From the NCBI RefSeq assembly GCF_011174775.1, contig NZ_JAANHS010000002.1, positions 124,001-188,000 of the forward strand: a stretch of DNA of 64,000 nucleotides, read 5' to 3'. Of this stretch, positions 23,365 to 43,944 are shown piece after piece; position 1 is the first letter of the stretch; each line of letters starts with the position of its first letter. The notes under the pieces are model-generated. The model searched no databases, was not told the origin of the DNA, and saw only the letters and a list, made by a program, of their open reading frames with translations. This stretch comes from Rhodobacter calidifons. GTDB lineage: Bacteria > Pseudomonadota > Alphaproteobacteria > Rhodobacterales > Rhodobacteraceae. A program made the translations under genes and the position numbers.

Positions 23365-23405
23365 GCCCCCCACCCCCCTCCCCTCCCCACGCGGGGAAGG
23401 GGAGG
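23365..23405. repeat. C/T-rich inverted repeat, copy 1 (family CT)
   Basis: CCTCCCCTCCCC (23377-23388) pairs with GGGGAAGGGGAGG (23393-23405), with the lead-in GCCCCCCACCCCC. Intergenic between the coiled-coil gene and the next. Near-identical copies are found at 27816 and, inside coding sequence, at 34652. Confidence 0.8.
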
Positions 23406-24604: not shown

Positions 24605-24675
24605 GCCGCCTTTGGTTCTCGAACCAATGGCGCACCAAAGGCGGCCCCGGGATATTTGTGGACAGATGAAAGGGC
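24605..24675. repeat. GATATTT-family repeat (family GP), copy 2; supplies an RBS
   Basis: GCCGCCTTTGGT (24605-24616) pairs with ACCAAAGGCGGC (24634-24645); an alternative inner hairpin joins TTGGTTC with GAACCAA (24612-24627). Then follows CCCCGGGATATTTGTGG and ACAGATGAAAGGGC, matching the copies at 40048 and 43887. The final GAAAGGG is the only purine-rich stretch before the ATG at 24683. Confidence 0.8.
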
Positions 24676-24682
24676 TTATCGC

Positions 24683-26611
24683 ATGAGCGCGCGCGACACG
24701 ATGGAGCTGAAGGAAGAGACGGTCCGGGCGCAGTATGAGACAGCGCTGGGGATGGTTCTGGGCTTCGATCATGCGCCGCGATTGGCGAAGCCTCTGGTTC
24801 AGGCGGCGGTGGCGGAACGGTCTCCGGGGGTTGGGGCGCGGCCCACGTTCCGGTCCACGGTGCCGGGGATGGCGACGCGGACGACGGCGCGGCCCGGCGG
24901 GGTGCGGCTGGCGGAGCGGGTGGAGGGGTTGGGCGATGGCCTGGTGACGCCGGTGCAGGCAGCGGTGCTGAATGCCTTGCGCCGTAGCCTCGCGATTGCG
25001 CTGGCGATGGGGGAGACGTTTTCGGCTCAGTCGGGCCTCGCCGAGTTGAAGAAGTCGAACCTGGAGGGGCGGGTGCCGGATGCGCGCCGCGCGGAGTTCG
25101 GGGAGTTGTTGCAGGGTGAGGCGTTGGTGGTGCTGTTCACCTTTGCCAATGCTTTGGCGTACCTCATCGCGCCGCATGTGGGGCCGGGGACGGTGGAACT
25201 GGGCGAGGTGGAGGAGGTGTTGACGGACAATGCTCCGCTGGCCTTGCAGGGCGCATTGTGGGAGCTGGATCAGGACATCGGCGCGCTGGCGACGGATGAC
25301 GTGAAGCTGGTGGCGGTGGTGTCGGCCTTTGCCGAGGCGCTGATGAAGAAGGTGCAGATCCGGGCGGAGAATGGGGCTCGGGTCAGCGTGTTTACCGGTG
25401 CGTCTTGGAAGGTGGAGGCCGACGGGCTGACCATCGCGGGGTTCAAGCCCGCGAAGGCGGCGAAGGGTGGCGTGATCGCCATGGCCTTCAAGAAGCCGCA
25501 TGAGGTGGTGGGGAACCACATCGCCAAATATCAGAGTCTGCGGCTGGCGAAGATGCTGATGGCCTATGATTTCGAGCGGCGGCTGAACCCGTTTGCCGAG
25601 CTTGGCGGGTTCATCTTCACCTTCATGGGGGACGGGAAGCCCGGGACGGGGAAGACCACGCTGATCCAGATGATGGCGGGCTTGCTGCACGATTACTGCA
25701 AGGTGGCGGGCTATCCGTTCCGGTATCAGAACTTCAGTATCGACCAGATCGACAGCTATCAGGGCAAGTCGGGGCAGAACGCGAAGGCGTTCATCGATGC
25801 GGTGCTTGATCCGAGTGTGATCGGCTTCGGGACCATCGACGACATCGACCAGGTGGCGGGCAAGCGGGGGGACCGGCAGTCCAGCGCGGGCCAGCAGGAG
25901 GTGACGGCGGTCTTCATGCAGGCCTTCGCCGGCGCGGGAACGGTGGTGCGGGGGAACTGCACCTTCGGGATGTTCAGCAACTTCCCGGAGAACGTGGACG
26001 ATGCCCTGCGCCAGCGGGCCGGGGCGCGGTTCCTGGTCGATGGGCCGCAGACGAAGGAGGATTACATCGACATCCTCTCGCTTTTGCTGGGCAAGAACCA
26101 TTCCATTCCAGTGGGCGACCATGAGTTGTTTGCGGCGCAGGAGATCAGGAAGGCTGTTGCCGCGTCCTTCGAGGGGCATTCCAAGCCGCATGAGGAGGGG
26201 CTTCTGAAGGTCTGGGACCGGGTGGCGCAGGAGATCGGGCCGCTGGACACGCTGGCGAAGCTCGGGGCCTATCTGAAGGCGATCCAGCAGGCGGATGAGC
26301 GGTTCACCGGGCGGGCGATCAAGAACATCACCGATGCGGTGAAGGTCCGGGCGATGGACTTCGAACTGCCGGATGAGTGGATGGAGGAGCCGGACCTCTT
26401 CCTGTTCAAGCCCTATGACGAGAAGCTGGCGATGATAAGGGGGCTGATGCGGCCGATCACGGTGGAGATGGTGATCCAGGAGATCAACCGCTATGCCGAT
26501 TCCGAGTTCCGCTATGCCGACAAGTCGGACGAGGTGGCCATCGAGGCAATGGTGCGCGACTTTGGCCTGACGGAAGAGGCGAAGCGGCGATATATGGAGG
26601 GGAAGGGGTGA
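24683..26611 (+). CDS. AAA+ ATPase of an uncharacterised operon
   Basis: 642 aa. A helical N-terminal half (1-300) precedes an AAA+ core: Walker A GDGKPGTGKTT at 316-326, Walker B IGFGTIDDID at 380-389, a sensor-like SNFPENVDDALRQRAGARF at 432-450 with candidate arginine fingers R443, R445 and R449, and a helical lid to the end. The lettering is reminiscent of MoxR-like or Rubisco-activase-like ATPases but I cannot place it in a named clade. The ATG at 24683 follows the SD-like stretch of the repeat; an upstream start would translate the repeat. Likely remodels a partner encoded in the same operon. Confidence 0.85.
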   Translation: MSARDTMELKEETVRAQYETALGMVLGFDHAPRLAKPLVQAAVAERSPGVGARPTFRSTVPGMATRTTARPGGVRLAERVEGLGDGLVTPVQAAVLNALRRSLAIALAMGETFSAQSGLAELKKSNLEGRVPDARRAEFGELLQGEALVVLFTFANALAYLIAPHVGPGTVELGEVEEVLTDNAPLALQGALWELDQDIGALATDDVKLVAVVSAFAEALMKKVQIRAENGARVSVFTGASWKVEADGLTIAGFKPAKAAKGGVIAMAFKKPHEVVGNHIAKYQSLRLAKMLMAYDFERRLNPFAELGGFIFTFMGDGKPGTGKTTLIQMMAGLLHDYCKVAGYPFRYQNFSIDQIDSYQGKSGQNAKAFIDAVLDPSVIGFGTIDDIDQVAGKRGDRQSSAGQQEVTAVFMQAFAGAGTVVRGNCTFGMFSNFPENVDDALRQRAGARFLVDGPQTKEDYIDILSLLLGKNHSIPVGDHELFAAQEIRKAVAASFEGHSKPHEEGLLKVWDRVAQEIGPLDTLAKLGAYLKAIQQADERFTGRAIKNITDAVKVRAMDFELPDEWMEEPDLFLFKPYDEKLAMIRGLMRPITVEMVIQEINRYADSEFRYADKSDEVAIEAMVRDFGLTEEAKRRYMEGKG

Positions 26612-26626
26612 TGGGACGACCGAGCG

Positions 26627-26688
26627 CCACCCCGGGCTTGACCCGGGGTCTCGACTTGACGGAGGCCCCGGATCAGGTCCGGGGCGGG
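26627..26688. repeat. CCCCGGACTTGA-type inverted repeat, copy 1 (family CG)
   Basis: CCACCCCGGGCTTGACCCGG at the left is matched, with several differences, by the inverted right arm ending GGTCCGGGGCGGG. A better-preserved copy is at 30381-30446. It lies directly after the ATPase gene, in front of the small membrane protein gene; an ATG overlapping the ATPase stop at 26611 opens a frame that runs through the repeat and ends at 26724. Confidence 0.7.
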
Positions 26689-26708
26689 AGAGCCCGGGAG
26701 CAAGCCGC

Positions 26709-27091
26709 GTGCACGAGCCGCTGACACTGACCCTCTGGAACTCCATCCTGCCGCTGGCGGGGTTGAGTGCGCTGGTGGCGTGGCTGCCGGGGTGGTTCGC
26801 GGGGGCTGGGTGTTTGTCGCAGCGGGTGCTGGCCTGGGCGGTGGTGAAGACGGCTGTGGTGGCCTTGGTCGTGGGGGCCGGGTTGGCGGTGGCGCTGTAT
26901 GCGGCGATCAATGACGGGGTGGTGGCGGGGATCCTGGCGGCCCCGGTTCAGCGGGTGGGGTTCTACCTGGGCCGCTCAGCCCTGTTCGCGCTGCTGTGGG
27001 GGCCGGTGTTGGGGTTCGTCTGGCTGGTGAAGGCGCAGGAGATGAACCGGCGGTTGGGCATGCGGATGGTGGATGAGGGGGGAAGGGGTGA
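26709..27091 (+). CDS. Small membrane protein, probably frameshifted at its end
   Basis: GTG start; the first 122 or so residues have three or four hydrophobic segments (LTLWNSILPLAGLSALVAWLPGW, WAVVKTAVVALVVGAGLAVALY, LGRSALFALLWGPVLGFVWLV) ending KAQEMNRRLGMRMVDEG. As written the frame then continues to 27437 through 115 residues that overlap another gene and look non-coding (SSRRYLPDSPLHCDRLVDRK). One extra G in the six-G run at 27077-27082 would end it as MVDEGGKG at a TGA overlapping the next ATG. I therefore take 27091 as the probable end. Unknown function; neighbour of the AAA+ ATPase. Confidence 0.55.
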
Positions 27092-27450
27092 TGGGAGCAG
27101 GATTGGTCGGGCTGTTTGGAGCACTTCTAGTCGGCGGTATCTTCCCGATTCTCCTTTGCATTGCGATCGGTTGGTGGATCGGAAAACGCATCGCCTACTG
27201 GACACTGTCAGTTCGGAGCTTCTCCGTTGCAGTGGCGCTGACTTGCATAGTCGTGGCCGCTTTCTGGTATCCGGCAATCAGCGCTTCCATCGAAGCCAAG
27301 CCCGAAGTGAGCGCGTGGGACTATCTTGTCGCTATGAAAAATGCACTCACCTTCGCATTCTTGCCTACAGCGATATCTGCGGCGCTTTCTTGGGTGTTGA
27401 ACTACGACGAAGCACTGCAACAGAGGGCGAAAGCTAAGGACGCGGCCTGA
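27091..27450 (+). CDS. Small membrane protein of lower G+C, likely acquired
   Basis: 119 aa, four hydrophobic segments (AGLVGLFGALLVGGIFPILLCIAIGWWIG, SFSVAVALTCIVVAAFWYPAISA, LTFAFLPTAISAALSWVLNY). Start ATG at 27091 with GGAAGGGG upstream. Three rows I counted (27241-27420) are 52-55% G+C against about 67% in the later 28441-28500, and codon use is less G/C-ended than the neighbours. Looks like an insertion into the operon together with the DUF559 gene three bases on. Function unknown. Confidence 0.6.
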   Translation: MGAGLVGLFGALLVGGIFPILLCIAIGWWIGKRIAYWTLSVRSFSVAVALTCIVVAAFWYPAISASIEAKPEVSAWDYLVAMKNALTFAFLPTAISAALSWVLNYDEALQQRAKAKDAA

Positions 27451-27453
27451 AAG

Positions 27454-28071
27454 ATGACCGGAATCCATCCCATCACACGGCTGAGGGCGCGGAAGCTGCG
27501 GACGGAGATGACGCCGCAGGAGCGGAGGCTTTGGGCGAAGCTGCGGGAGTTGAACCGGATGTTGGGGCTGCACTTCCGGCGGCAGGCTCCCATTGGGCCG
27601 TTCATCGCGGATTTCGCCGATCTGGGGCGAAGGTTGGTCATTGAGGTGGACGGAAGTGGGCATGGTGGGCCTCGGGATGCGGCGCGGGATGAGTGGTTGA
27701 GCGCGCAGGGGTTTCAGATGTTGCGGTTCTGGAACCCGGAGGTGTCGGGGAATATCGAGGGTGTGATGCAGGTGATCTTCGACGCAATTGATGGCGAGTC
27801 CTTGGCTGAGGGCGTGCCCCCCACCCCCATCCCCTCCCCACGGGGGGGAGGGGAGGCTCTTGGGGCGAGCGGTGCGCGTGAAAAACAACGGGTAGCGCAT
27901 GGTGCTGACGCCCCCTCACCCCATCCCTCCCCCACCCGGGGGGAGGGAGGCGCTGCCCTTGATGCGTCGAGTGGGACGGACGAACCAGGTGCCTCCCCTC
28001 CCCCTTCGTGGGGAGGGGATGGGGGTGGGGGGCCACCGTCAGAAACCCGCGTAACTGGGGGACGGGAATGA
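27454..28071 (+). CDS. DUF559 (Vsr-like endonuclease fold) protein with a repeat-encoded tail
   Basis: 205 aa. Residues 1-117 are a complete DUF559 domain: MTPQERRLWAKLRELN, HFRRQAPIGPFIADF, LVIEVDGSGH (candidate nuclease acidic residues) and MLRFWNPEVSGNIEGV. The remaining 88 residues (from about GVPPTPIPSPRGGG) are encoded by three copies of the CT repeat and their spacers, giving Pro/Gly-rich, low-complexity protein. The natural end of the domain was probably near 27810. DUF559 proteins are related to very-short-patch repair nucleases and are often mobile; activity unproven. Confidence 0.8.
   Translation: MTGIHPITRLRARKLRTEMTPQERRLWAKLRELNRMLGLHFRRQAPIGPFIADFADLGRRLVIEVDGSGHGGPRDAARDEWLSAQGFQMLRFWNPEVSGNIEGVMQVIFDAIDGESLAEGVPPTPIPSPRGGGEALGASGAREKQRVAHGADAPSPHPSPTRGEGGAALDASSGTDEPGASPPPSWGGDGGGGPPSETRVTGGRE
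27816..28032. repeat. Cluster of three C/T-rich inverted repeats (family CT, copies 2-4)
   Basis: Copy 2 at 27816-27856 (GCCCCCCACCCCC then CCCCTCCCCACGGGGGGG), copy 3 at 27911-27950 (CCCCATCCCTCCCCC, GGGGGGAGGGAGG) and copy 4 at 27992-28032 in the opposite orientation. All three fall inside the open frame of the DUF559 gene and none brings a stop codon in that frame. Confidence 0.85.
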
Positions 28072-30380: not shown

Positions 30381-30446
30381 CCCGCCCCGGACTTGACCCG
30401 GGGCCTCTGGTCGCCGCACGAGGCCCCGGATCAAGTCCGGGGCGGG
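30381..30446. repeat. CCCCGGACTTGA-type inverted repeat, copy 2 (family CG), probable terminator
   Basis: 26-base arms: CCCGCCCCGGACTTGACCCG... at 30381-30406 and its inverse at 30421-30446, with one mismatch, around a 14-base loop. It fills the gap between the convergent DUF1523 and pheT genes and could stop transcription from both sides. Similar palindromes are widespread in alphaproteobacterial genomes. Confidence 0.85.
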
Positions 30447-33742: not shown

Positions 33743-36700
33743 TCAGAGCTCTTCGATGGCCAACACGCCTTGCATCGCCTTGATCGCGCCCTTCACCTGC
33801 GGGGTGATCGGGTAGCTGTCGGGCAGCGCGATGTCGATTTCCCGACCCTGGGGGTCGGTGATGCAGAGGGTGATCGAGCCCCGGCTGCGGCCCTCGACCC
33901 GGGACAGCAGCGAGGCGAGGGAGATGGCGGCCTCGGGGCGGGAGAGGTGGATGCGCAGGTCGGGCGCCCCGGCCTGGGCGGCGACCATGTCGATGGGGGT
34001 GATGGATTGGGCGAGGAGTTTGAGGGTGTCGCCTTCCAGTTCTGCCTTGACGGTGAGGACGACGTTTTCGCCCGCGTCGAGGTAATCGCGCGAGGATTCC
34101 AGCACGTCGGAGAAGCAGGTGACCTCGTAAAGGCCGGTGGGATCGGAGAGCTGGACGAAGGCGAAGCGGTTGCCTTTGGCGGATTTGCGTTCCTGTCTGG
34201 ACGATACCGACCCGGCAAGTTTGGCGATGCAGGGGCCGCGTTCGGCCTTCTGGGTGACCTGGGCCAGAGTTTCGACGCCCTTCTTGCGCAGCGCGGACAT
34301 GTAGTCGTCCAAGGGGTGGCCGGAGAGATAGAAGCCTACGGCCTGGTGTTCCTGGGCCAGGCGCTCGGTGGGAAGCCAGTCGTCGCGGAAGGGGAGCCGC
34401 GGTTCGGGGATGTCGGCCCCGGCGCTGCCGAAGAGCGAGTTCTGGGTGGATGCGGCGGCTTCGTGGATGGCGGCGGAATAGGCGACGAGGGCGTCGAGCG
34501 AGTCGAACACGCGGGCGCGGTTGGGGTCGAGTTGGTCGAAGGCTCCGGCGCGGGCGAGCATCTCCAGCGGGCGCTTGCCGATGCGTTTCAGGTCCACGCG
34601 GCGGGCGAAGTCGAAGAGGGTGGTGAAGGGTTTGTCGGTCTGGCTGACCGGGTGCCCCCCACCCCCATCCCCTCCCCACGGGGGGGAGGGGAGGCGCGGG
34701 CTGTCGGGCGATTGAGCCTGGGATGACGCGGGTGCCATCCGGGCCTGGACGATGAGGTTCATCGCCTCGACGCCGACGTTCTTCAGCGCGCCGAGGCCGT
34801 AGACGATGGCACCGTCGCGGACGGTGAAGGTGGCAAGGCTGGCGTTGACGCAAGGCGCGACGGTCCTGATGCCCAGCTTGTCCACCTCGCGCTTGTAGAC
34901 CGCCAGCTTGTCGGTGAGGTGGATGTCGCAGTTCATCACGGCGGCCATGAACTCGGCCGGATAGTTCGCCTTGAGGTAGGCGGTCTGGTAGCTGACCACG
35001 GCATAGGCGGCGGCATGCGACTTGTTGAAGCCGTAGTTGGCGAATTTCTCCAGCAGGTCGAAGACCTCGCCGGCCTTCCTGGCGTCGATCCCGTGGGTCT
35101 TCGCGCAGCCTTCGATGAACTTGGGCCGCTCCTTGGCCATTTCCTCGGGGATCTTCTTCCCCATCGCCCGGCGCAGAAGGTCGGCGCCGCCGAGCGAATA
35201 GCCCGCCATGACCTGGGCGATCTGCATCACCTGTTCCTGATAGACGATGATGCCCTGCGTCTCCTTCAGGATGTGGTCGATCGTCGGGTGGATGGATTCG
35301 ATCTCGCGCAGGCCGTTCTTGACCTCGCAGTAGATCGGGATGTTCTCCATCGGCCCCGGACGGTAGAGCGCCACCAGCGCCACGATGTCCTCGATGCAGG
35401 TGGGCTTCATCCGCCTGAGCGCGTCCATCATGCCCGAGCTTTCGACCTGGAACACCGCGACTGTCCTTGCGGAGGCGTAGAGATCGTAGGTGGCCTTGTC
35501 GTCCAGCGGGATCAGGTTGATGTCGAATTCGATGCCCCGCAGCCTCAGAAGATCCATCGCGTTCTGGATCACGGTCAGGGTCTTGAGGCCGAGGAAGTCG
35601 AATTTCACCAGCCCCGCCGCCTCGACCCATTTCATGTTGAACTGGGTGGCGGGCATGTCCGATCGCGGGTCGCGGTAGAGCGGCACCAGCTGATCCAGCG
35701 GGCGGTCGCCGATCACCACGCCCGCGGCATGGGTCGAGGCGTTGCGATAGAGGCCTTCGATCCTGGCGGCGTAATCGAGGAGGCGACCGACGACTTCCTC
35801 TTTCGCGGCCTCGCGCAACCGGGGTTCGTCGGCCAGCGCCTTGGTGATCGAGACGGGTTTGACGCCTTCGACCGGGATCATCTTCGACAGCTTGTCGACC
35901 TGACCATAGGACAGTTGCAGCACGCGGCCCACGTCGCGGACGGCGGCCTTGGACAGAAGCGCGCCGAAGGTGATGATCTGGGCCACCCGGTCGCGGCCGT
36001 ATTTCTCCTGCACATAGGCGATGACTTCCTCGCGCCGGTCCATGCAGAAGTCGATGTCGAAGTCGGGCATCGAGACGCGTTCGGGGTTCAGGAAACGCTC
36101 GAACAGCAGCGCATAGCGCAGGGGGTCGAGGTCGGTGATCGTCAGCGCATAGGCGACAAGGCTGCCCGCACCCGAGCCCCGGCCTGGACCCACGGGGATG
36201 TTGTGGTCCTTGGCCCATTTGATGAAGTCGGCCACGATCAGGAAATAGCCGGGGAAGCCCATCTTCTCGATGATGCCAAGCTCGAAATCGAGGCGGGCCT
36301 GGTATTCCTCGGGCGTGGCGGAATGGGGGATCACGGCCAGACGCTTCTGCAAGCCTTCGTTGGCCTGACGGCGCAGTTCCTGCACCTCGTCATCGGCGAA
36401 GCGCGGCAGGATCGGCTTGCGCTTCTGGGCGGCATAGGCGCAGCGTTTCGCGATCTCGACGGTGTTTTCCAGCGCCTCGGGAAGGTCGGCGAAAAGCGCG
36501 ACCATCTCTGCCTCGGACTTGAAATAGTGCTGCGGGGTCAGGCGGCGGCGGGGCTGCTGCTGGTCGACATAGGCGCCCTCGGCGATGCAGATGAGGGCAT
36601 CATGCGCCTCGTACATCTCGGCCTTTGGAAAATAGACGTCGTTGGTGGCGACGATCGGCAGGCCCAGTTCGTAGGCGAGGTCGATGGCGCCGCGTTCGGC

Positions 36701-37288
36701 CAGCGCCTCGTGTTCGGGAAGCGCGCCGCCGGGGCCGGGGTGGCGTTGCAGCTCGACATAAAGCCGGTTCGGGTAGATCGCGGCGAGGCGTTCCAGGATC
36801 GCGCGGGCCTTGGTGTGCTGGCCGGTGGCGTGGAAGCGGCCCAAGGGGCCTTCGGGGCCGCCGGTGAGGCAGATCAGGCCCTGAGCGTTCTGTGCTAGCT
36901 CGTCCAGCGTCACCTGCGGCAGGTTGGCCGAGCCCGTCATCGCCCCGTCGATGTAAAGCCGCGTGTTGAGCCGCATCAGGTTCATGTAGCCCTGTTCGTT
37001 CTGGACCAGAAGGACGATGGGCGCGGGCAGGCGGGGCTTTTCGCCCGGTTGGGCGGGGTCATGGGCGATGGAGATCTGGCAGCCGACGATGGGCTGGACC
37101 CCGGCGCCCATGGCGGTGACGGAGAACTCCAGGGCCGCGAACATGTTGTTCGTGTCGGTCACGGCCACGGCGGGCATGGCCTGCGCCGTGCAGAGGCCGA
37201 CGAGTTTCTTCACCGGCACCGCGCCTTCGAGAAGCGAGTGTTCGGTGTGGGTGCGGAGGTGGATGAAACGGGGGTTCGCGCCGGGCAT
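33743..37288 (-). CDS. dnaE: DNA polymerase III alpha subunit DnaE
   Basis: 1181 aa replicative polymerase. PHP domain at the N-terminus (FIHLRTHTEHSLLEGA); catalytic region with VGPGRGSGAGSLVAYAL and the acidic MPDFDIDFCMDRR; then GVKPVSITKAL, helix-hairpin-helix and a C-terminal OB domain. The repeat at 34652-34694 adds about 25 residues (around 860-885, PRLPSPPWGGDGGGGHP) between the polymerase/HhH part and LKRIGKRPLEMLARAGA; family members lack this. The frame is kept, so the protein is probably active. Confidence 0.97.
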   Translation of the reverse strand: MPGANPRFIHLRTHTEHSLLEGAVPVKKLVGLCTAQAMPAVAVTDTNNMFAALEFSVTAMGAGVQPIVGCQISIAHDPAQPGEKPRLPAPIVLLVQNEQGYMNLMRLNTRLYIDGAMTGSANLPQVTLDELAQNAQGLICLTGGPEGPLGRFHATGQHTKARAILERLAAIYPNRLYVELQRHPGPGGALPEHEALAERGAIDLAYELGLPIVATNDVYFPKAEMYEAHDALICIAEGAYVDQQQPRRRLTPQHYFKSEAEMVALFADLPEALENTVEIAKRCAYAAQKRKPILPRFADDEVQELRRQANEGLQKRLAVIPHSATPEEYQARLDFELGIIEKMGFPGYFLIVADFIKWAKDHNIPVGPGRGSGAGSLVAYALTITDLDPLRYALLFERFLNPERVSMPDFDIDFCMDRREEVIAYVQEKYGRDRVAQIITFGALLSKAAVRDVGRVLQLSYGQVDKLSKMIPVEGVKPVSITKALADEPRLREAAKEEVVGRLLDYAARIEGLYRNASTHAAGVVIGDRPLDQLVPLYRDPRSDMPATQFNMKWVEAAGLVKFDFLGLKTLTVIQNAMDLLRLRGIEFDINLIPLDDKATYDLYASARTVAVFQVESSGMMDALRRMKPTCIEDIVALVALYRPGPMENIPIYCEVKNGLREIESIHPTIDHILKETQGIIVYQEQVMQIAQVMAGYSLGGADLLRRAMGKKIPEEMAKERPKFIEGCAKTHGIDARKAGEVFDLLEKFANYGFNKSHAAAYAVVSYQTAYLKANYPAEFMAAVMNCDIHLTDKLAVYKREVDKLGIRTVAPCVNASLATFTVRDGAIVYGLGALKNVGVEAMNLIVQARMAPASSQAQSPDSPRLPSPPWGGDGGGGHPVSQTDKPFTTLFDFARRVDLKRIGKRPLEMLARAGAFDQLDPNRARVFDSLDALVAYSAAIHEAAASTQNSLFGSAGADIPEPRLPFRDDWLPTERLAQEHQAVGFYLSGHPLDDYMSALRKKGVETLAQVTQKAERGPCIAKLAGSVSSRQERKSAKGNRFAFVQLSDPTGLYEVTCFSDVLESSRDYLDAGENVVLTVKAELEGDTLKLLAQSITPIDMVAAQAGAPDLRIHLSRPEAAISLASLLSRVEGRSRGSITLCITDPQGREIDIALPDSYPITPQVKGAIKAMQGVLAIEEL
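34652..34694. repeat. C/T-rich inverted repeat inside dnaE (family CT, copy 5)
   Basis: CCCCTCCCC and GGGGAGGGG arms around ACGGG, with the lead-in GCCCCCCACCCCC, nearly the same as the copy at 27816. It is inserted in frame in dnaE and translated on the minus strand as a Pro/Gly/Trp-rich insert. Confidence 0.9.
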
Positions 37289-37532
37289 GGCGGGAGTCTA
37301 GCGCGGGCTTTGCGGGGGTGGAAGGGCAGTTTGGTCTCAGGCTGCGACGCCCGAATTTTCGGCAAATCCTGATAACAGCTTCGCCTTTTGGCGATGAGTT
37401 TGTTCTTGCCTTGAATCGCCGGGCCGCGCTTGATGGAATGACAACCAGAACAAGGGGCGCGTGGGTCGCTTTACGCCGCATCGGGCGATCCCGCAAAGTG
37501 CCTCGACCGGGGAGAAGGCGGCGGACTGACAG
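37289..37532. other. Divergent dnaE-xdhA intergenic region
   Basis: 244 bases. Contains a short hairpin around GCTTCGCCTTTTGGCGATG. Must hold both promoters. A purine-responsive leader for xdhA is conceivable, but I see no riboswitch consensus I can defend. Confidence 0.4.
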
Positions 37533-38906
37533 ATGAGCATTGCGTTTCTGTTGAACGGAACGCCGGTTCGCATCGAGGGGGAAGCCCCGACGCGGACGCT
37601 TCTGGACTGGCTGCGCGAAGAGCGCGGGCTGACCGGGACCAAGGAGGCGTGCTGCGAGGGCGACTGCGGGGCCTGCACGGTGATGGTCACCGACGAGGGC
37701 GGCTCGAAGGCGCTGAACGCCTGCATCCTGTTCCTGCCGCAACTGCATGGCAAGGCGGTGCGGACCATCGAGGGTGTGTCGGGGCCGAAGGGTGAGATGC
37801 ATCCGGTGCAGGCGGCGATGGTGGCGCATCATGGCAGTCAGTGCGGGTTCTGCACGCCCGGTTTCGTGGTCAGCATGGCAGTGGCGCATCTGAACGGGGC
37901 GCGGGATCACGACGACCAGCTGGCGGGGAACCTCTGCCGGTGCACCGGGTATGCCCCCATCGTGCGGGCGGCGGAGGCGGCGGCTGGTGAGGCGGTGCCG
38001 GACTGGATGAAGGCGGATCGGGACGTGTTGGCGTCGTTCGCTGCGGGAGAGGCGGGGGCGTTCCGGCCCCAAGATTCGGGTGCACTGGCGGAGTGGTATC
38101 TGGCCAATCCGGATGCCGTGCTGGTGGCCGGGGCGACAGATGTGGGGCTTTGGGTGACGAAGCAGCTGCGGGAGTTTCCGGTGGCCTTCCTATCGGGCGT
38201 CGAGGACCTGAAGGGGATCGAGGTGCGCGGGGGCAGCCTGCATGTGGGCGCTTGCGTGACGATCAGCGCGCTGCGCGAGGCGGTGAAGGACCGGCTGCCC
38301 TCGTTCGCCGAGCTTTTGCGGCGGTATGCGTCGGTGCAGGTGCGCAATGCGGCGACGATCGGGGGCAATATCGCCAACGGCTCGCCCATCGGCGACGGGC
38401 CGCCGGCGCTGATCGCCCTGGGGGCCACGCTGCATCTGCGGCGGGGGGACGAGATGCGGTCGATGCCGCTGGAGGACTTCTTCCTCGACTATCGCAAACA
38501 GGACCGGCGACCGGGAGAGTTCGTGGCGGGAGTGTCGTTCCCGGAAAGCGCCCCGGCGCTGCGGTGCTACAAGATTTCCAAGCGGTTCGATCAGGACATC
38601 AGCGCGGTCTGCGGGTGTTTCAACGTGACGGTCACGGACGGTGTGGTGACATCCGCCCGGATCGCCTTTGGCGGCATGGCCGGGGTGCCGAAGCGCGCCA
38701 TCCGCGCGGAGACGGCGCTGATCGGGCGTGACTGGACGGAGGCGACGATGGACGCGGCGGCCGAGGCGATGGCGGGGGACTTCACTCCGCTGAGCGACAT
38801 GCGGGCCAGCGCGGCCTATCGCATGCTCACGGCGCAGAACCTTCTGCGGCGGTATTTCCATGATCTGAACGGCGTGCCGGTTTCGGTGCTGGAGGTGGCG
38901 CGATGA
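37533..38906 (+). CDS. xdhA: Xanthine dehydrogenase small subunit XdhA
   Basis: 457 aa. Carries two [2Fe-2S] clusters and FAD. Plant-type ferredoxin motif CCEGDCGAC (C40, C41, C45, C48); second cluster cysteines in CGFCTPGF and CRCTGY; FAD-binding [15 protein letters not shown] and a CO-dehydrogenase-like C-terminal domain. Electrons from xanthine or hypoxanthine oxidation pass through it to NAD+. Overlaps xdhB by ATGA. Confidence 0.96.
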
Positions 38907-41317
38907 GCATGGGGAAAGCCCTGCCGCATGACGCGGCACCCCTGCATGTGACCGGGCAGGCGCGCTATGTGGACGACCTGCCCTTGGCCAATGCGCTGCA
39001 TCTGGCCTTCGGGCTGTCCTCGGTCGCGCATGGCGAGATCACGGGGATCGACCTGTCGGCGGTGAAGGCTGCTCCGGGGGTCGTGGCGGTGCTGTCGGCG
39101 GAGGACTTGCCGGACATGCCGGATTGCAGCCCTTCGGCGCATGACGAGCCGCTGTTGGCCGTGGGCAAGGTGCATTACGTCGGGCAGCCGGTTTTTCTGG
39201 TCGTGGCCGAAAGCCATCTGGCGGCGCGCAAGGCGGCGCGGCTGGGGAAGGTTTCTTACCGCGAACTGCCCGCGCTCTTGACCGTCGATGACGCGCTGGC
39301 GGCGAACAGCCGGTTCGAGCAGGGGCCGGTCATCTGGGCCAAGGGCGATGCGGCGCGGGCCATTGCGGCGGCTCCGCGCGTCGTCGAGGGATCGTTCGAG
39401 GTGGGGGGGCAGGAGCACTTCTATCTTGAGGGGCAGGTCGCGGCGGCGATCCCGCAGGAAGGGGGCGACATGATCGTCCATTCCTCGACCCAGCATCCGA
39501 CCGAGGTGCAGCACAAGGTGGCCCATGCGCTGCATCTGCCGATGTCCTCGGTCCGGGTGGAAGTGCGCCGGATGGGCGGGGGGTTCGGTGGGAAGGAATC
39601 GCAGGGGAACGCCTTGGCGATTGCCTGTGCGGTGGCGGCGCGTCTGACGGGGCGGCCCTGCCGGATGCGCTATGACCGGGATGACGACATGGTCATCACG
39701 GGCAAGCGGCATGATCTGCGGATCGTCTATCGCGCCGGGGTGGACGAGGAGGGGCGGATTCTGGGGCTGGAGTTCACGCATCTCTTCCGCTGCGGCTGGT
39801 CGCAGGACCTGAGCCTGCCGGTCGCGGACCGGGCGATGCTGCATGCGGACAACTGCTATCACCTGCCCCACATCCGCATCGAGAGCCACCGGCTGAAGAC
39901 CAACACGCAAAGCGCCACGGCCTTCCGGGGCTTTGGCGGCCCGCAGGGGATGGTGGGGATCGAGCGGGTGATGGACCATGTGGCTTTCGTCTTGGGGCGA
40001 GAGCCGCTGGAGGTGCGCAAGGCCAACTTCTATCGCGGGATGGGAGACCCCGGGGGCCAGCCCCCGGACCCCCGGGATATTTCCGGACAGATGAAAGCAG
40101 GGAGTGGGGCGGATCTGACGTCTCGCGGTGCGGCGGGCCCTGTCGGGTCGCATGACTTGCCGCCGGACGGGCGGGTGCAGACCACGCCCTATCACATGCC
40201 GGTGGAGGATTTCATCGGGCACGAGCTGGTGGCCGAGCTGGAGCGGACCAGCGACTACCGGGCGCGGAAGGCGGAGATTGCGGCGTGGAATGCGCGGTCT
40301 CCGGTGTTGAAGCGGGGGATCGCGCTGACGCCGGTGAAGTTCGGGATTTCGTTCACGCTGACCTGGCTGAACCAGGCCGGGGCGCTGGTGCATGTCTATC
40401 AGGACGGGTCCATCGCGCTGAACCATGGCGGGACCGAGATGGGACAGGGGCTGTTCCAGAAGGTGGCGCAGGTGACGGCCTCGGTCTTCGGGCTGGACGT
40501 CGGGATGGTGAAGATCACGGCGACGGACACGGGGAAGGTGCCGAATACCTCGGCCACGGCGGCGAGTTCTGGGAGCGACCTGAACGGGATGGCGGCGAAG
40601 GCGGCAGCAGAGACCATCCGCGGGCGGCTGGCGGAGTTCATTGCCGAGAAGCATCAGGTGAAGGCTTCGACGGTCAGGTTCGTGGATGGCACCGTGAAGG
40701 TCGCGGGCGAGGTCTATGACTGGGCGCGGGTGGTGGCCTGGGCCTATCAGGCGCGGGTCAGCCTGTCCTCCACGGGCTATTACGCGACGCCGAAGATCAT
40801 CTGGGACCGGGTGAAGGGGACGGGGCGGCCGTTCTACTATTTCGCCTACGGGGCAGCCGTGACCGAGGTGGTGATCGACCGGCTGACCGGGGAGAACCGG
40901 ATTTTGCGGGCCGATCTGCTGCACGACACGGGGACCTCGCTGAACCCTGCCCTGGATATCGGGCAGGTCGAAGGGGCCTATGTGCAGGGCGCGGGCTGGC
41001 TGACGACGGAGGAGCTTGTGTGGGATGGCAAGGGGCGGCTGATGACGCATGCTCCCAGCACCTACAAGATCCCGGCCTGTTCGGACCGGCCGCGCGATTT
41101 CCGCGTGGCGCTGTGGGGGCGGCCTAACCGCGAGGATTCGGTCGGGAAGTCCAAGGCAGTGGGGGAACCGCCGTTCATGCTGGGGATCTCGGCGCTTTAT
41201 GCGCTATCGGATGCGGTGGCGGCCTGCGGGGATGGGTCGGTCTATCCGGCGCTGGATGCGCCGGCGACGGCGGAACGGGTGCTGATGGCGGTCAGGAGGG
41301 TCGAGGGCTGTGTTTGA
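38903..41317 (+). CDS. xdhB: Xanthine dehydrogenase molybdenum subunit XdhB, with a repeat insertion
   Basis: 804 aa, about 40 longer than usual. Molybdopterin subunit: [59 protein letters not shown] and the catalytic-Glu block [16 protein letters not shown]. Residues about 382-424 ([19 protein letters not shown]...) are encoded by a GP repeat and following sequence, between [14 protein letters not shown] and [17 protein letters not shown] where homologues run straight through. No frame loss. GTG-started xdhC overlaps its end by eight bases. Confidence 0.95.
40048..40100. repeat. GATATTT-family repeat inside xdhB (family GP, copy 3)
   Basis: CCGGGGG (40050-40056) pairs with CCCCCGG (40061-40067), then ACCCCCGGGATATTTCCGG and ACAGATGAAAGC, clearly the same element as the intergenic copies at 24605 and 43887. 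It is in frame in xdhB without a stop. Confidence 0.88.
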
Positions 41318-42266
41318 CCTTGCGGCATTGGCAGAGGCGATCCGGGCGCATGGGCGGGTCGCTCGGGTGGTGATCGCGGGGGTCGAGGGATCGAGCCCGC
41401 GCGAGGTGGGCGCGTCGATGCTGGTCTGGGATCAGGGGCAGTCGGGGACGATCGGCGGCGGGGCGCTGGAGTATGAGGCGGCGGCGAAGGCGCGTCTGAT
41501 GCTGGCTGGCCGCCCTACCCCATCCCTCCCCCACGGAGGGGGGAGGGAGGCGCCCTCGGTCGAGCGGGTCGCGCTGGGGCCGAGCCTTGGCCAGTGCTGC
41601 GGCGGGGCGGTGGTGCTGTGGACCGAGGTGTTCCAAGCGGTGCCGGAAGCCGTGGCGGGTGTGGTCGCGCGGGGTGTGGGCGAGATGCCCCTTGCGGTGA
41701 AGCGGGTCCTGGCGGCGGCGCGGGGGCAAGGGGTGCGGCCCGCGCCGGGGCTGGTGGCCGGCTGGCTGGTGGAGCCGGTGGCGGAGGCGGAGCGGCAGGT
41801 CTGGGTCTGGGGCGCGGGGCATGTCGGGCGGGCCCTGGTCAATGTGCTGGCGCCCTTGCCGGGGATCGCGCTGACCTGGGTGGATGTCGCGGCAGAGCGG
41901 TTTCCGGAGGGGGTGCCGGACGGGGTGACGGTGGTTCCGGCGCGCGATCCGGCGGTGCTGGCGGATCACGTGCCGCCGGATGCCGAGCATCTGGTGCTGA
42001 CCTTTTCCCATGCGCTGGACCTGGAACTGTGTCACCGGCTGCTGAACCGGGGGTTCCGGTCCTGCGGGCTGATCGGGTCGGCGACGAAATGGGGGCGGTT
42101 CCGGTCTCGGTTGAAGGCGCTGGGGCATTCCGGTGAGGCGGTGGGGCATATCCGCTGTCCGATCGGGGACCCAAGTCTGGGCAAGCACCCGCAGGCGATT
42201 GCGATTGGCGTGGTGGCGGAGATGTTGAGGGCTCCGGCGGCGAAGGTGGGGGAGAAGCGGGCATGA
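41310..42266 (+). CDS. xdhC: Xanthine dehydrogenase accessory factor XdhC, with a repeat insertion
   Basis: 318 aa. XdhC binds the molybdenum cofactor and helps its sulfuration and insertion into XdhB. Opens [23 protein letters not shown]; carries LGQCCGG; C-terminal Rossmann-like VWVWGAGHVGRALVNVL and LIGSATKWGRFRSRL. Residues about 66-82 (RPTPSLPHGGGREAPS) come from a CT repeat. Translationally coupled to both neighbours. Confidence 0.93.
   Translation: MFDLAALAEAIRAHGRVARVVIAGVEGSSPREVGASMLVWDQGQSGTIGGGALEYEAAAKARLMLAGRPTPSLPHGGGREAPSVERVALGPSLGQCCGGAVVLWTEVFQAVPEAVAGVVARGVGEMPLAVKRVLAAARGQGVRPAPGLVAGWLVEPVAEAERQVWVWGAGHVGRALVNVLAPLPGIALTWVDVAAERFPEGVPDGVTVVPARDPAVLADHVPPDAEHLVLTFSHALDLELCHRLLNRGFRSCGLIGSATKWGRFRSRLKALGHSGEAVGHIRCPIGDPSLGKHPQAIAIGVVAEMLRAPAAKVGEKRA
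41513..41550. repeat. C/T-rich inverted repeat inside xdhC (family CT, copy 6)
   Basis: CCCCATCCCTCCCCC followed by GGGGGGAGGGAGG with ACGGA between; matches the copy at 27911. In frame in xdhC, adding about 13-17 residues. Confidence 0.88.
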
Positions 42267-43803: not shown

Positions 43804-43935
43804 GGCTCCCCTCCCACAGAGGGGGAGGCGCGGGTTGCGGCGTTCCGTGCAACTGGTCGGCGGCACGCGTGCCGGGCTGTCGGAATGGGGGGCCAGCCCC
43901 CCAGACCCCCCGGGATATTTGTGGACAGATGAAAG
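43804..43935. repeat. CT repeat remnant (copy 7) followed by GATATTT-family repeat (GP copy 4)
   Basis: GGCTCCCCTCCCACAGAGGG at 43804 is a shortened CT element. The GP element starts with GGGGGG (43887-43892) pairing CCCCCC (43897-43902), continues CCCCCCGGGATATTTGTGG and ends GATGAAAGGGGC. GAAAGGGG is the only SD-like stretch before the GTG at 43945. The pair of repeats separates the ATPase gene from the permease genes within one operon. Confidence 0.8.
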
Positions 43936-43944
43936 GGGCGTGTC

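Follow-up and report, generated by a model that had tools for sequence, protein, structure and literature searches.

We analysed a 64,000-nucleotide (nt) stretch of the Rhodobacter calidifons genome (contig NZ_JAANHS010000002.1, positions 124,001 to 188,000; hereafter, the window), in which a short C/T-rich palindrome, termed E1, lies in frame within the enzyme genes dnaE and xdhC and forms the tail of a gene encoding a DUF559 nuclease. Our reading, to which we assign a probability of roughly 0.6, is that E1 is a hairpin of the BoxC/PIT type that behaves as a protein-coding palindromic element and was most likely spread by a DUF559 nuclease, the family of E. coli YcjD. The observations behind this reading are in-frame insertion, the occurrence of empty and filled alleles, the arrangement of palindromes as doublets, their linkage to DUF559 genes and their orientation there, subtype clustering, a copy-number correlation, and the predicted nuclease fold. 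An earlier note on this DNA had described palindromic repeats in frame in dnaE, xdhB and xdhC and had likened them to the palindromic elements of Rickettsia. These repeats are present with the frame kept, and the insertion of two repeat families into unrelated enzymes is supported; the observation was confirmed with corrections, and the interpretation is partly supported, being right in kind and incomplete, as the DUF559 link was missed.

The dnaE gene (33743-37288, - strand) holds a type A E1 palindrome at 34652-34695, with its C-rich strand on the + strand (model match of 67.8 bits; C22:158653-158695). The entire extra DnaE segment (34637-34738, - strand) comprises 34 codons and gives a net gain of 33 residues over the empty allele LIVQAR-GDKPF, rather than the 25 first estimated, and about 14 of these are E1. 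That empty allele (LIVQAR or a near form, one residue, then DKPF) was found in 14 of the 25 readable same-genus rows of the alignment, and the E1 insert in two, those of the source genome and of its sister G020; the remaining rows had a net 4-residue insert (3/25) or other inserts (6/25). Rows were excluded if the frame was shifted (L063, L073 and L082) or if the contig ended within the site (L080 and L081). The best solved DnaE match (5fku_A, from E. coli) aligned up to query residue 851 and resumed at 888. At the DNA level, the dnaE copy is 100% identical across 45 nt to a copy in hrpB (C11:383420). As a separate observation, the dnaE site is an insertion hotspot: nine relatives (L057-L062, L067, L072 and L074) hold other in-frame stretches there, none of them recognised as E1. 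The contigs of L080 and L081 stop within this site, suggesting that E1 palindromes can interrupt assemblies and that copy counts from draft genomes may be too low.

The xdhC gene (41310-42266) carries a type B E1 palindrome in frame (41509-41550, + strand), which adds about 15 residues by comparison with relatives, as previously estimated. Scan-recognised E1 occupied this site in 11 of 23 same-genus rows (seven with a single copy and four with an inverted pair), and the others comprised one decayed copy and 11 rows without E1. Alignment with relatives thus bore out the claim of true extra residues, with empty and filled alleles at both the dnaE and xdhC sites. Across the ~75 kb compared with sister genome G020, the dnaE copy is kept, the xdhC copy is degenerate and the other window copies are absent, a pattern that points to inheritance plus turnover and not to one jump.

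E1 and a second family, E2 (described below), are genome-wide repeats, far above chance. When the 3.62 Mb genome was searched, a single DNA query, with 40 of its 54 candidates scored, gave at least 32 E1 matches; a covariance model trained on 24 copies gave at least 50 matches at E<0.01; this count is a lower bound, since 150 of the 1384 first-look candidates were scored. By frame reading, ten of the 50 copies lie in seven enzyme genes and three in the DUF559 gene tail; the remaining 37 are either intergenic or unproven. A codon-score test flagged eight in genes and four as possible gene extensions. This search added five host genes to dnaE and xdhC, namely phnI, hrpB and an SRPBCC/alpha-beta hydrolase gene (each with a doublet), rsmE, and an ampD-like amidase gene. 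A single Pfam domain spans the doublet in PhnI (protein residues 1-387, profile positions 1-347), and residues 142-152 of the solved PhnI structure 7z15_C correspond to the E1 site. The RsmE insert is within the Pfam methyltransferase domain, the HrpB insert is preceded by helicase domains and followed by HrpB-specific domains, and the hydrolase insert has a Pfam domain on either side. The ampD-like amidase is a weaker in-gene case because its Pfam domain stops before the element.

Empty alleles were present in relatives for four of the seven E1 host genes. By strict scan, E1 was detected at the phnI site in 9 of 25 readable genus rows and at the hrpB site in 13 of 29, with the remainder decayed or clean; partial rows were excluded (L275 and L287 for phnI, L316 for hrpB), as were L288-L290, which are genomes already counted. 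In all readable rows of these two genes the frame continues through the site; one row contains an internal stop: in L267, phnI has E1 with an in-frame stop directly after the insert, perhaps reflecting a broken gene or a sequencing error. Depending on the species, one site holds a single E1, a pair, a decayed copy or none. The element is also unusually safe to translate in whichever orientation it lies, with 46 of the 50 copies open in all six frames, compared with an average of 26.7 (maximum 34) for letter shuffles and with 25% of ordinary 43-mers from the window. An E1 insertion with a length that is a multiple of three, at a tolerant spot in a gene, would thus survive as a Pro/Gly-rich insert.

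Judged by its sequence, E1 is the form that the BoxC/PIT/TM palindrome takes in this genus: a C/T-rich hairpin joined by a third block that is C-rich and mirror-symmetric. The earlier description of it as unrelated in sequence does not hold. The window copies passed an explicit scan for a hairpin (stem ≥9 nt) with an adjacent third C-rich block, an arrangement predicted to be able to form a triplex. They do not match the exact TM_ECO consensus (CCCTCNCCCN3-6GGGNGAGGGN3GGGNGAGGG) and are, by reading, variants with CCCCTCCCC or CCCTCCCCC arms, which indicates that E1 has the same architecture and not the exact E. coli sequence; TM_ECO-like copies are present in the relatives L040, L052, L013 and L015. 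The BoxC/PIT palindromes have been known from E. coli since the 1990s, and a later survey counted 3610 TM_ECO copies in 262 proteobacterial genomes (PMC4666352). E1 resembles those described there in having a C-rich hairpin plus third block of about 35-40 nt, two types arranged in inverted doublets, and many proteobacterial copies. In E. coli K-12, TM palindromes were reported as always intergenic, with five inverted doublets each of type A plus type B, and the same paper describes no function and no tie to gene classes or mobile elements; E1, in contrast, occurs in frame in enzymes and is linked to DUF559.

Types A and B were set here by the arm and in PMC4666352 by the second loop. Eight of the nine E1 doublets in the source genome combine type A with type B, and one is unclear. 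Nine of 11 close E1 pairs are inverted, seven as + - with spacers of 26-57 nt and two as - +; the other two are one + + pair and one single palindrome overlapping itself on both strands. The larger E1 unit, with A and B palindromes in opposite orientation, is therefore built like a REPIN. As in REPIN/RAYT systems (PMC3116915), the unit is an inverted palindrome doublet, single copies are seen as remnants, and the gene for a DNA-cutting enzyme is flanked by the repeats, but the E1-linked enzyme has a predicted PD-(D/E)XK/EDxHD-type fold and not a Y1 transposase fold. RAYT as the mover of E1 in this genus is unsupported: none of 32 genus genomes had a match above the PF01797 cut-off, and two weak matches fell below it. 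Like the Rickettsia palindromic elements, E1 is inserted in frame in unrelated genes (PMC10969869); those elements are about 150 bp long, whereas E1 is a C/T-rich element of BoxC type that measures ~43 nt when single and ~110-145 nt when doubled. We file E1 under BoxC/PIT/TM by architecture, with the Rickettsia likeness resting on the mode of insertion. No Rfam match at the gathering score was obtained in window positions 22000-45000.

The DUF559 (PF04480) nuclease gene of the window (27454-28071, + strand) is the only DUF559 match in the genome, and its C-terminal tail is made of three E1 copies: a type A copy identical to that of dnaE across the element (27816-27856, + strand), followed by an inverted doublet with a type B left half (27910-27950, + strand) and a type A right half (27992-28033, - strand). 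The stretch from 27816 to 28033, previously taken as intergenic, is thus an in-frame part of this gene, and a single copy at 23365-23405 (+ strand; model match) is intergenic as stated. The predicted structure of the protein (predicted local distance difference test score of 93) had Foldseek matches to N. gonorrhoeae NGO0050, the homing endonuclease I-Bth0305I (3r3p, E 5e-5) and Vsr (1vsr, E 6e-3), and the invariant D, E, D and H residues are retained. According to this model, DUF559 has the PD-(D/E)XK-like fold of the EDxHD homing endonucleases and Vsr, with cutting and homing as predicted activities; the likeness to I-Bth0305I and Vsr lies in the predicted fold and the conserved D, E, D and H, and the difference is that the DUF559 genes here are palindrome-flanked. 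YcjD was earlier assigned to the PD-(D/E)XK superfamily (PMC1189080), and a DUF559 gene was placed in the EDxHD homing family (PMC9403480). PADLOC returned no match for the window protein or for YcjD. In G020, a different gene of ~1.5 kb between the same neighbours replaces the DUF559 region (window positions 26611-28067), and this place looks like a gene swap site.

The link between DUF559 genes and palindromes is strong. Within the genus, 14 of 16 DUF559 loci carried E1 in the fetched stretch (up to 1.5 kb per side), at a density of 0.92 per kb compared with 0.06 at dnaE loci and 0.12 at xdhB loci, though both hold E1 here. At the level of the class, 22 of 30 alphaproteobacterial DUF559 loci had a palindrome (up to 1.5 kb per side; hairpin-plus-third-block rule). 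When 20 of these 30 loci were extended to ~20 kb, 21 palindromes fell no more than 100 nt from the DUF559 domain (5.25 per kb), three at 100-200 nt, none at 200-2000 nt and four in the remaining 295 kb (0.01 per kb beyond 200 nt), with 14 of the 20 loci having one within 200 nt. Among titled DUF559 loci spanning many phyla, of which we took the best 80 of the 582 confirmed, 58 likewise had a palindrome within 200 nt, and the density fell from 9.9 per kb at 0-50 nt to <0.11 beyond 500 nt, with palindromes touching the match end counted as distance 0. The control for this linkage was the far flanks of the same DUF559 loci, not another gene family.

Palindromes around DUF559 genes are also oriented. 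Across 124 loci, a set that omits the genus loci L051 and L053 (without palindromes) and L054 (with one), 94 had a palindrome within 250 nt, 51 of them on both sides. The nearest downstream palindrome was on the + strand in 69 cases and on the - strand in six, and the nearest upstream one on the - strand in 55 and on the + strand in 15 (binomial p 1e-14 and 2e-6, respectively); counting all palindromes within 250 nt gave 80 + and 29 - downstream, and 59 - and 30 + upstream. A complete + - doublet is present on each side of the gene at L148, L160 and L189. At L176 ([Erwinia] mediterraneensis), the DUF559 gene is followed by a tandem array of seven + TM palindromes ~100 nt apart. The link looks new, as no paper among those listed by our searches of the open-licence PubMed Central literature was seen to make it.

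Palindrome subtypes track nuclease phylogeny. When the arm type of each locus's nearest palindrome was mapped onto a tree of 123 DUF559 domains (68 rows with 7 types), 22 changes were needed, compared with 36.6 for shuffled labels (0 of 200 shuffles as low), and 18 compared with 31.3 after removal of the window's genus (60 rows). Arm types seen at least three times were used and rarer ones were dropped; the tree has few columns and many unresolved forks, and near-copies raise the clustering. The close DUF559 proteins of L138 and L147, from Dadabacteria and Deltaproteobacteria genomes, share an arm type (fork support 85), as if gene and palindromes had moved together. Mirror symmetry between third block and hairpin arm extends to 8.66 of 9 positions (198 palindromes), compared with 7.71 (maximum 7.86) when third blocks were swapped between loci.

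Copy number was compared with the presence of the nuclease gene in E. coli and in the genus. The sole palindrome scanned in 16 kb around ycjD, the DUF559 gene of MG1655, adjoins ycjD, and is TM no. 9 in the published E. coli K-12 table (PMC4666352). The ycjD gene is present in 3365 of 5426 E. coli genomes; an even pick of 60 from 5375 matching records showed 11-26 palindrome places in those with ycjD (n = 37; median 17, ycjD site counted) and 1-15 in those without (n = 23; median 3; one-sided p 3e-10). Genus genomes had a median of 36.5 E1 copies with DUF559 (n = 14) and 11 without (n = 18; one-sided p 0.008). G023 was scored as lacking DUF559, its 21-bit match being above the cut-off but in a frame of 2012 amino acids.

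The flanking of DUF559 genes by palindromes in many bacterial groups makes DUF559 a good candidate for the mover. We infer that DUF559 mobilises palindromes by recognition, cutting and copying: the nuclease would recognise the folded palindrome and cut DNA either there or at the target, and repair would then copy the doublet to a new place, similar to the presumed role of RAYT transposases for REPINs but with an unrelated nuclease. Most copies are found between genes and a few in genes, where those keeping the frame at tolerant spots would persist and then decay. In its broadest form, for which we see an even chance, this proposal makes YcjD-type nucleases the movers of BoxC/PIT/TM palindromes generally, in a bacteria-wide nuclease-plus-palindrome mobile system that is independent of RAYT/REPIN, spreads A/B doublets, crosses phyla with the gene, and sometimes writes in-frame segments into core enzymes. 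If true, a second, unrelated type of enzyme would sustain a REPIN-like way of life. Since the palindromes are linked by position to a single small nuclease family, the question of their mover can be put directly to the test in E. coli K-12 by deleting one gene. The in-frame copies in dnaE, xdhC, phnI and hrpB represent elements of this kind adding protein sequence outside Rickettsia.

Other explanations account for part of these data. DUF559 could be a free-standing homing endonuclease that carries its own gene into doublets; these would be landing sites spread by something else, and the - gene + arrangement would be a doublet split by the gene. The modelled homing-endonuclease fold and the EDxHD assignment of a DUF559 gene (PMC9403480) are consistent with this, as is the prevailing - gene + order of the nearest palindromes, also found in four of five E. 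coli K-12 doublets (Table 1 of PMC4666352). We nevertheless consider it rather unlikely, because it leaves unexplained why copy number tracks ycjD in the E. coli sample and DUF559 in the genus, and because L148, L160 and L189 hold a whole doublet per side and not one split doublet. Linker drift, by which the in-gene copies would be variable linkers grown C/G-rich with no repeat inserted, might be proposed from the non-E1 stretches that some relatives hold at the dnaE, hrpB and phnI sites. In its pure form it was rejected, and we give it hardly any weight, given the near-identical DNA of scattered copies such as those of dnaE and hrpB, the inverted doublets within genes, and clean empty alleles such as that of dnaE. 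An improbable but more substantial alternative holds that the palindromes are passive, with replication slippage, gene conversion and recombination at triplex-forming sequence accounting for their spread and deletion, and that DUF559, as an enzyme repairing or processing such structures, is retained close to them or in palindrome-rich genomes. In its favour, TM loci have been described as unstable and without a mobile-element link (PMC4666352). A DUF559 protein from Caulobacter was proposed to act as a Vsr-like enzyme in mismatch repair (PMC12907096), which makes Vsr-like repair a serious alternative role for DUF559. Passive palindromes would not be predicted to crowd within ~100 nt of DUF559 while being rare in the remaining flanks, to be oriented around the gene, or to cluster by subtype on the DUF559 tree.

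The Caulobacter interpretation also weighs against mobilisation by DUF559, and so do several of our own results. Comparison of E. coli doublet loci turned up no fresh insertion bearing a target-site duplication. At alx-sstT the alleles differ by 75 nt, fitting a deletion between CCCTCTCCC repeats and so in line with passive loss; at fepB-entC the 186-nt difference takes in the doublet and its flanks and shows no clear duplication; and the ygfF-gcvP alleles are heavily rearranged. Strict palindromes were not found nearby at 22 of the best 80 of 582 loci, at 6 of the 20 extended loci and at 8 of the 30 class-level loci, nor in the fetched stretches of genus loci L051 and L053. The subtype and mirror tests include related loci, which are not independent. 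The E. coli copy-number correlation is confounded by clade: a study of eefABC (PMC12817139) reported that ycjD replaces the eef operon and is conserved in phylogroups A, B1 and C. One O157:H7 genome without ycjD (H160) still has 12 palindrome places. When limited to 23 high-quality genomes, the one-sided p for the genus is only 0.04. Many E1 copies occur in genomes scored as lacking DUF559 (65 in G024, 39 in G008, 36 in G004, 34 in G046), including sister G020, which has no DUF559 match yet 27 E1 matches genome-wide, and few occur in G021 (3) and G007 (9) despite DUF559.

E2 is a repeat family separate from E1, and its insertion in xdhB is old, inherited, and shared by most of the genus. The element, a hairpin plus a tail (GGATATTT..GGACAGATGAAA), lies in frame at 40048-40100 (+ strand) within xdhB (38903-41317). 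Repeat comparison within the window located an E2 tail between genes at 24645-24674 (+ strand) and a hairpin with tail between genes at 43887-43937 (+ strand; genome match C22:167888), and at least 43 DNA matches were obtained genome-wide (40 of 59 candidates scored). Only about 17 of the extra XdhB residues, first put at about 40, are E2; another ~30 form a non-repeat stretch that is present in 18 of 23 same-genus rows. For XdhB, the best match of solved structure, chain 1jro_B (from Rhodobacter capsulatus), aligned to either side of the insert. The E2 tail occurs at the identical xdhB site in 21 of the 23 rows with three different hairpin forms, indicating an old insertion whose hairpin has changed since; L030 has a degenerate element, and L031 and the distant relatives have none. 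These three hairpins on one tail, in close species (L010-L032), look as if E2 copies exchange hairpins. A third repeat family, composed of inverted pairs like CCCGCCCCGGACTTGACCCGGGGCCTC / GAGGCCCCGGATCAAGTCCGGGGCGGG, was observed at two places in the window (26627-26688 and 30381-30446).

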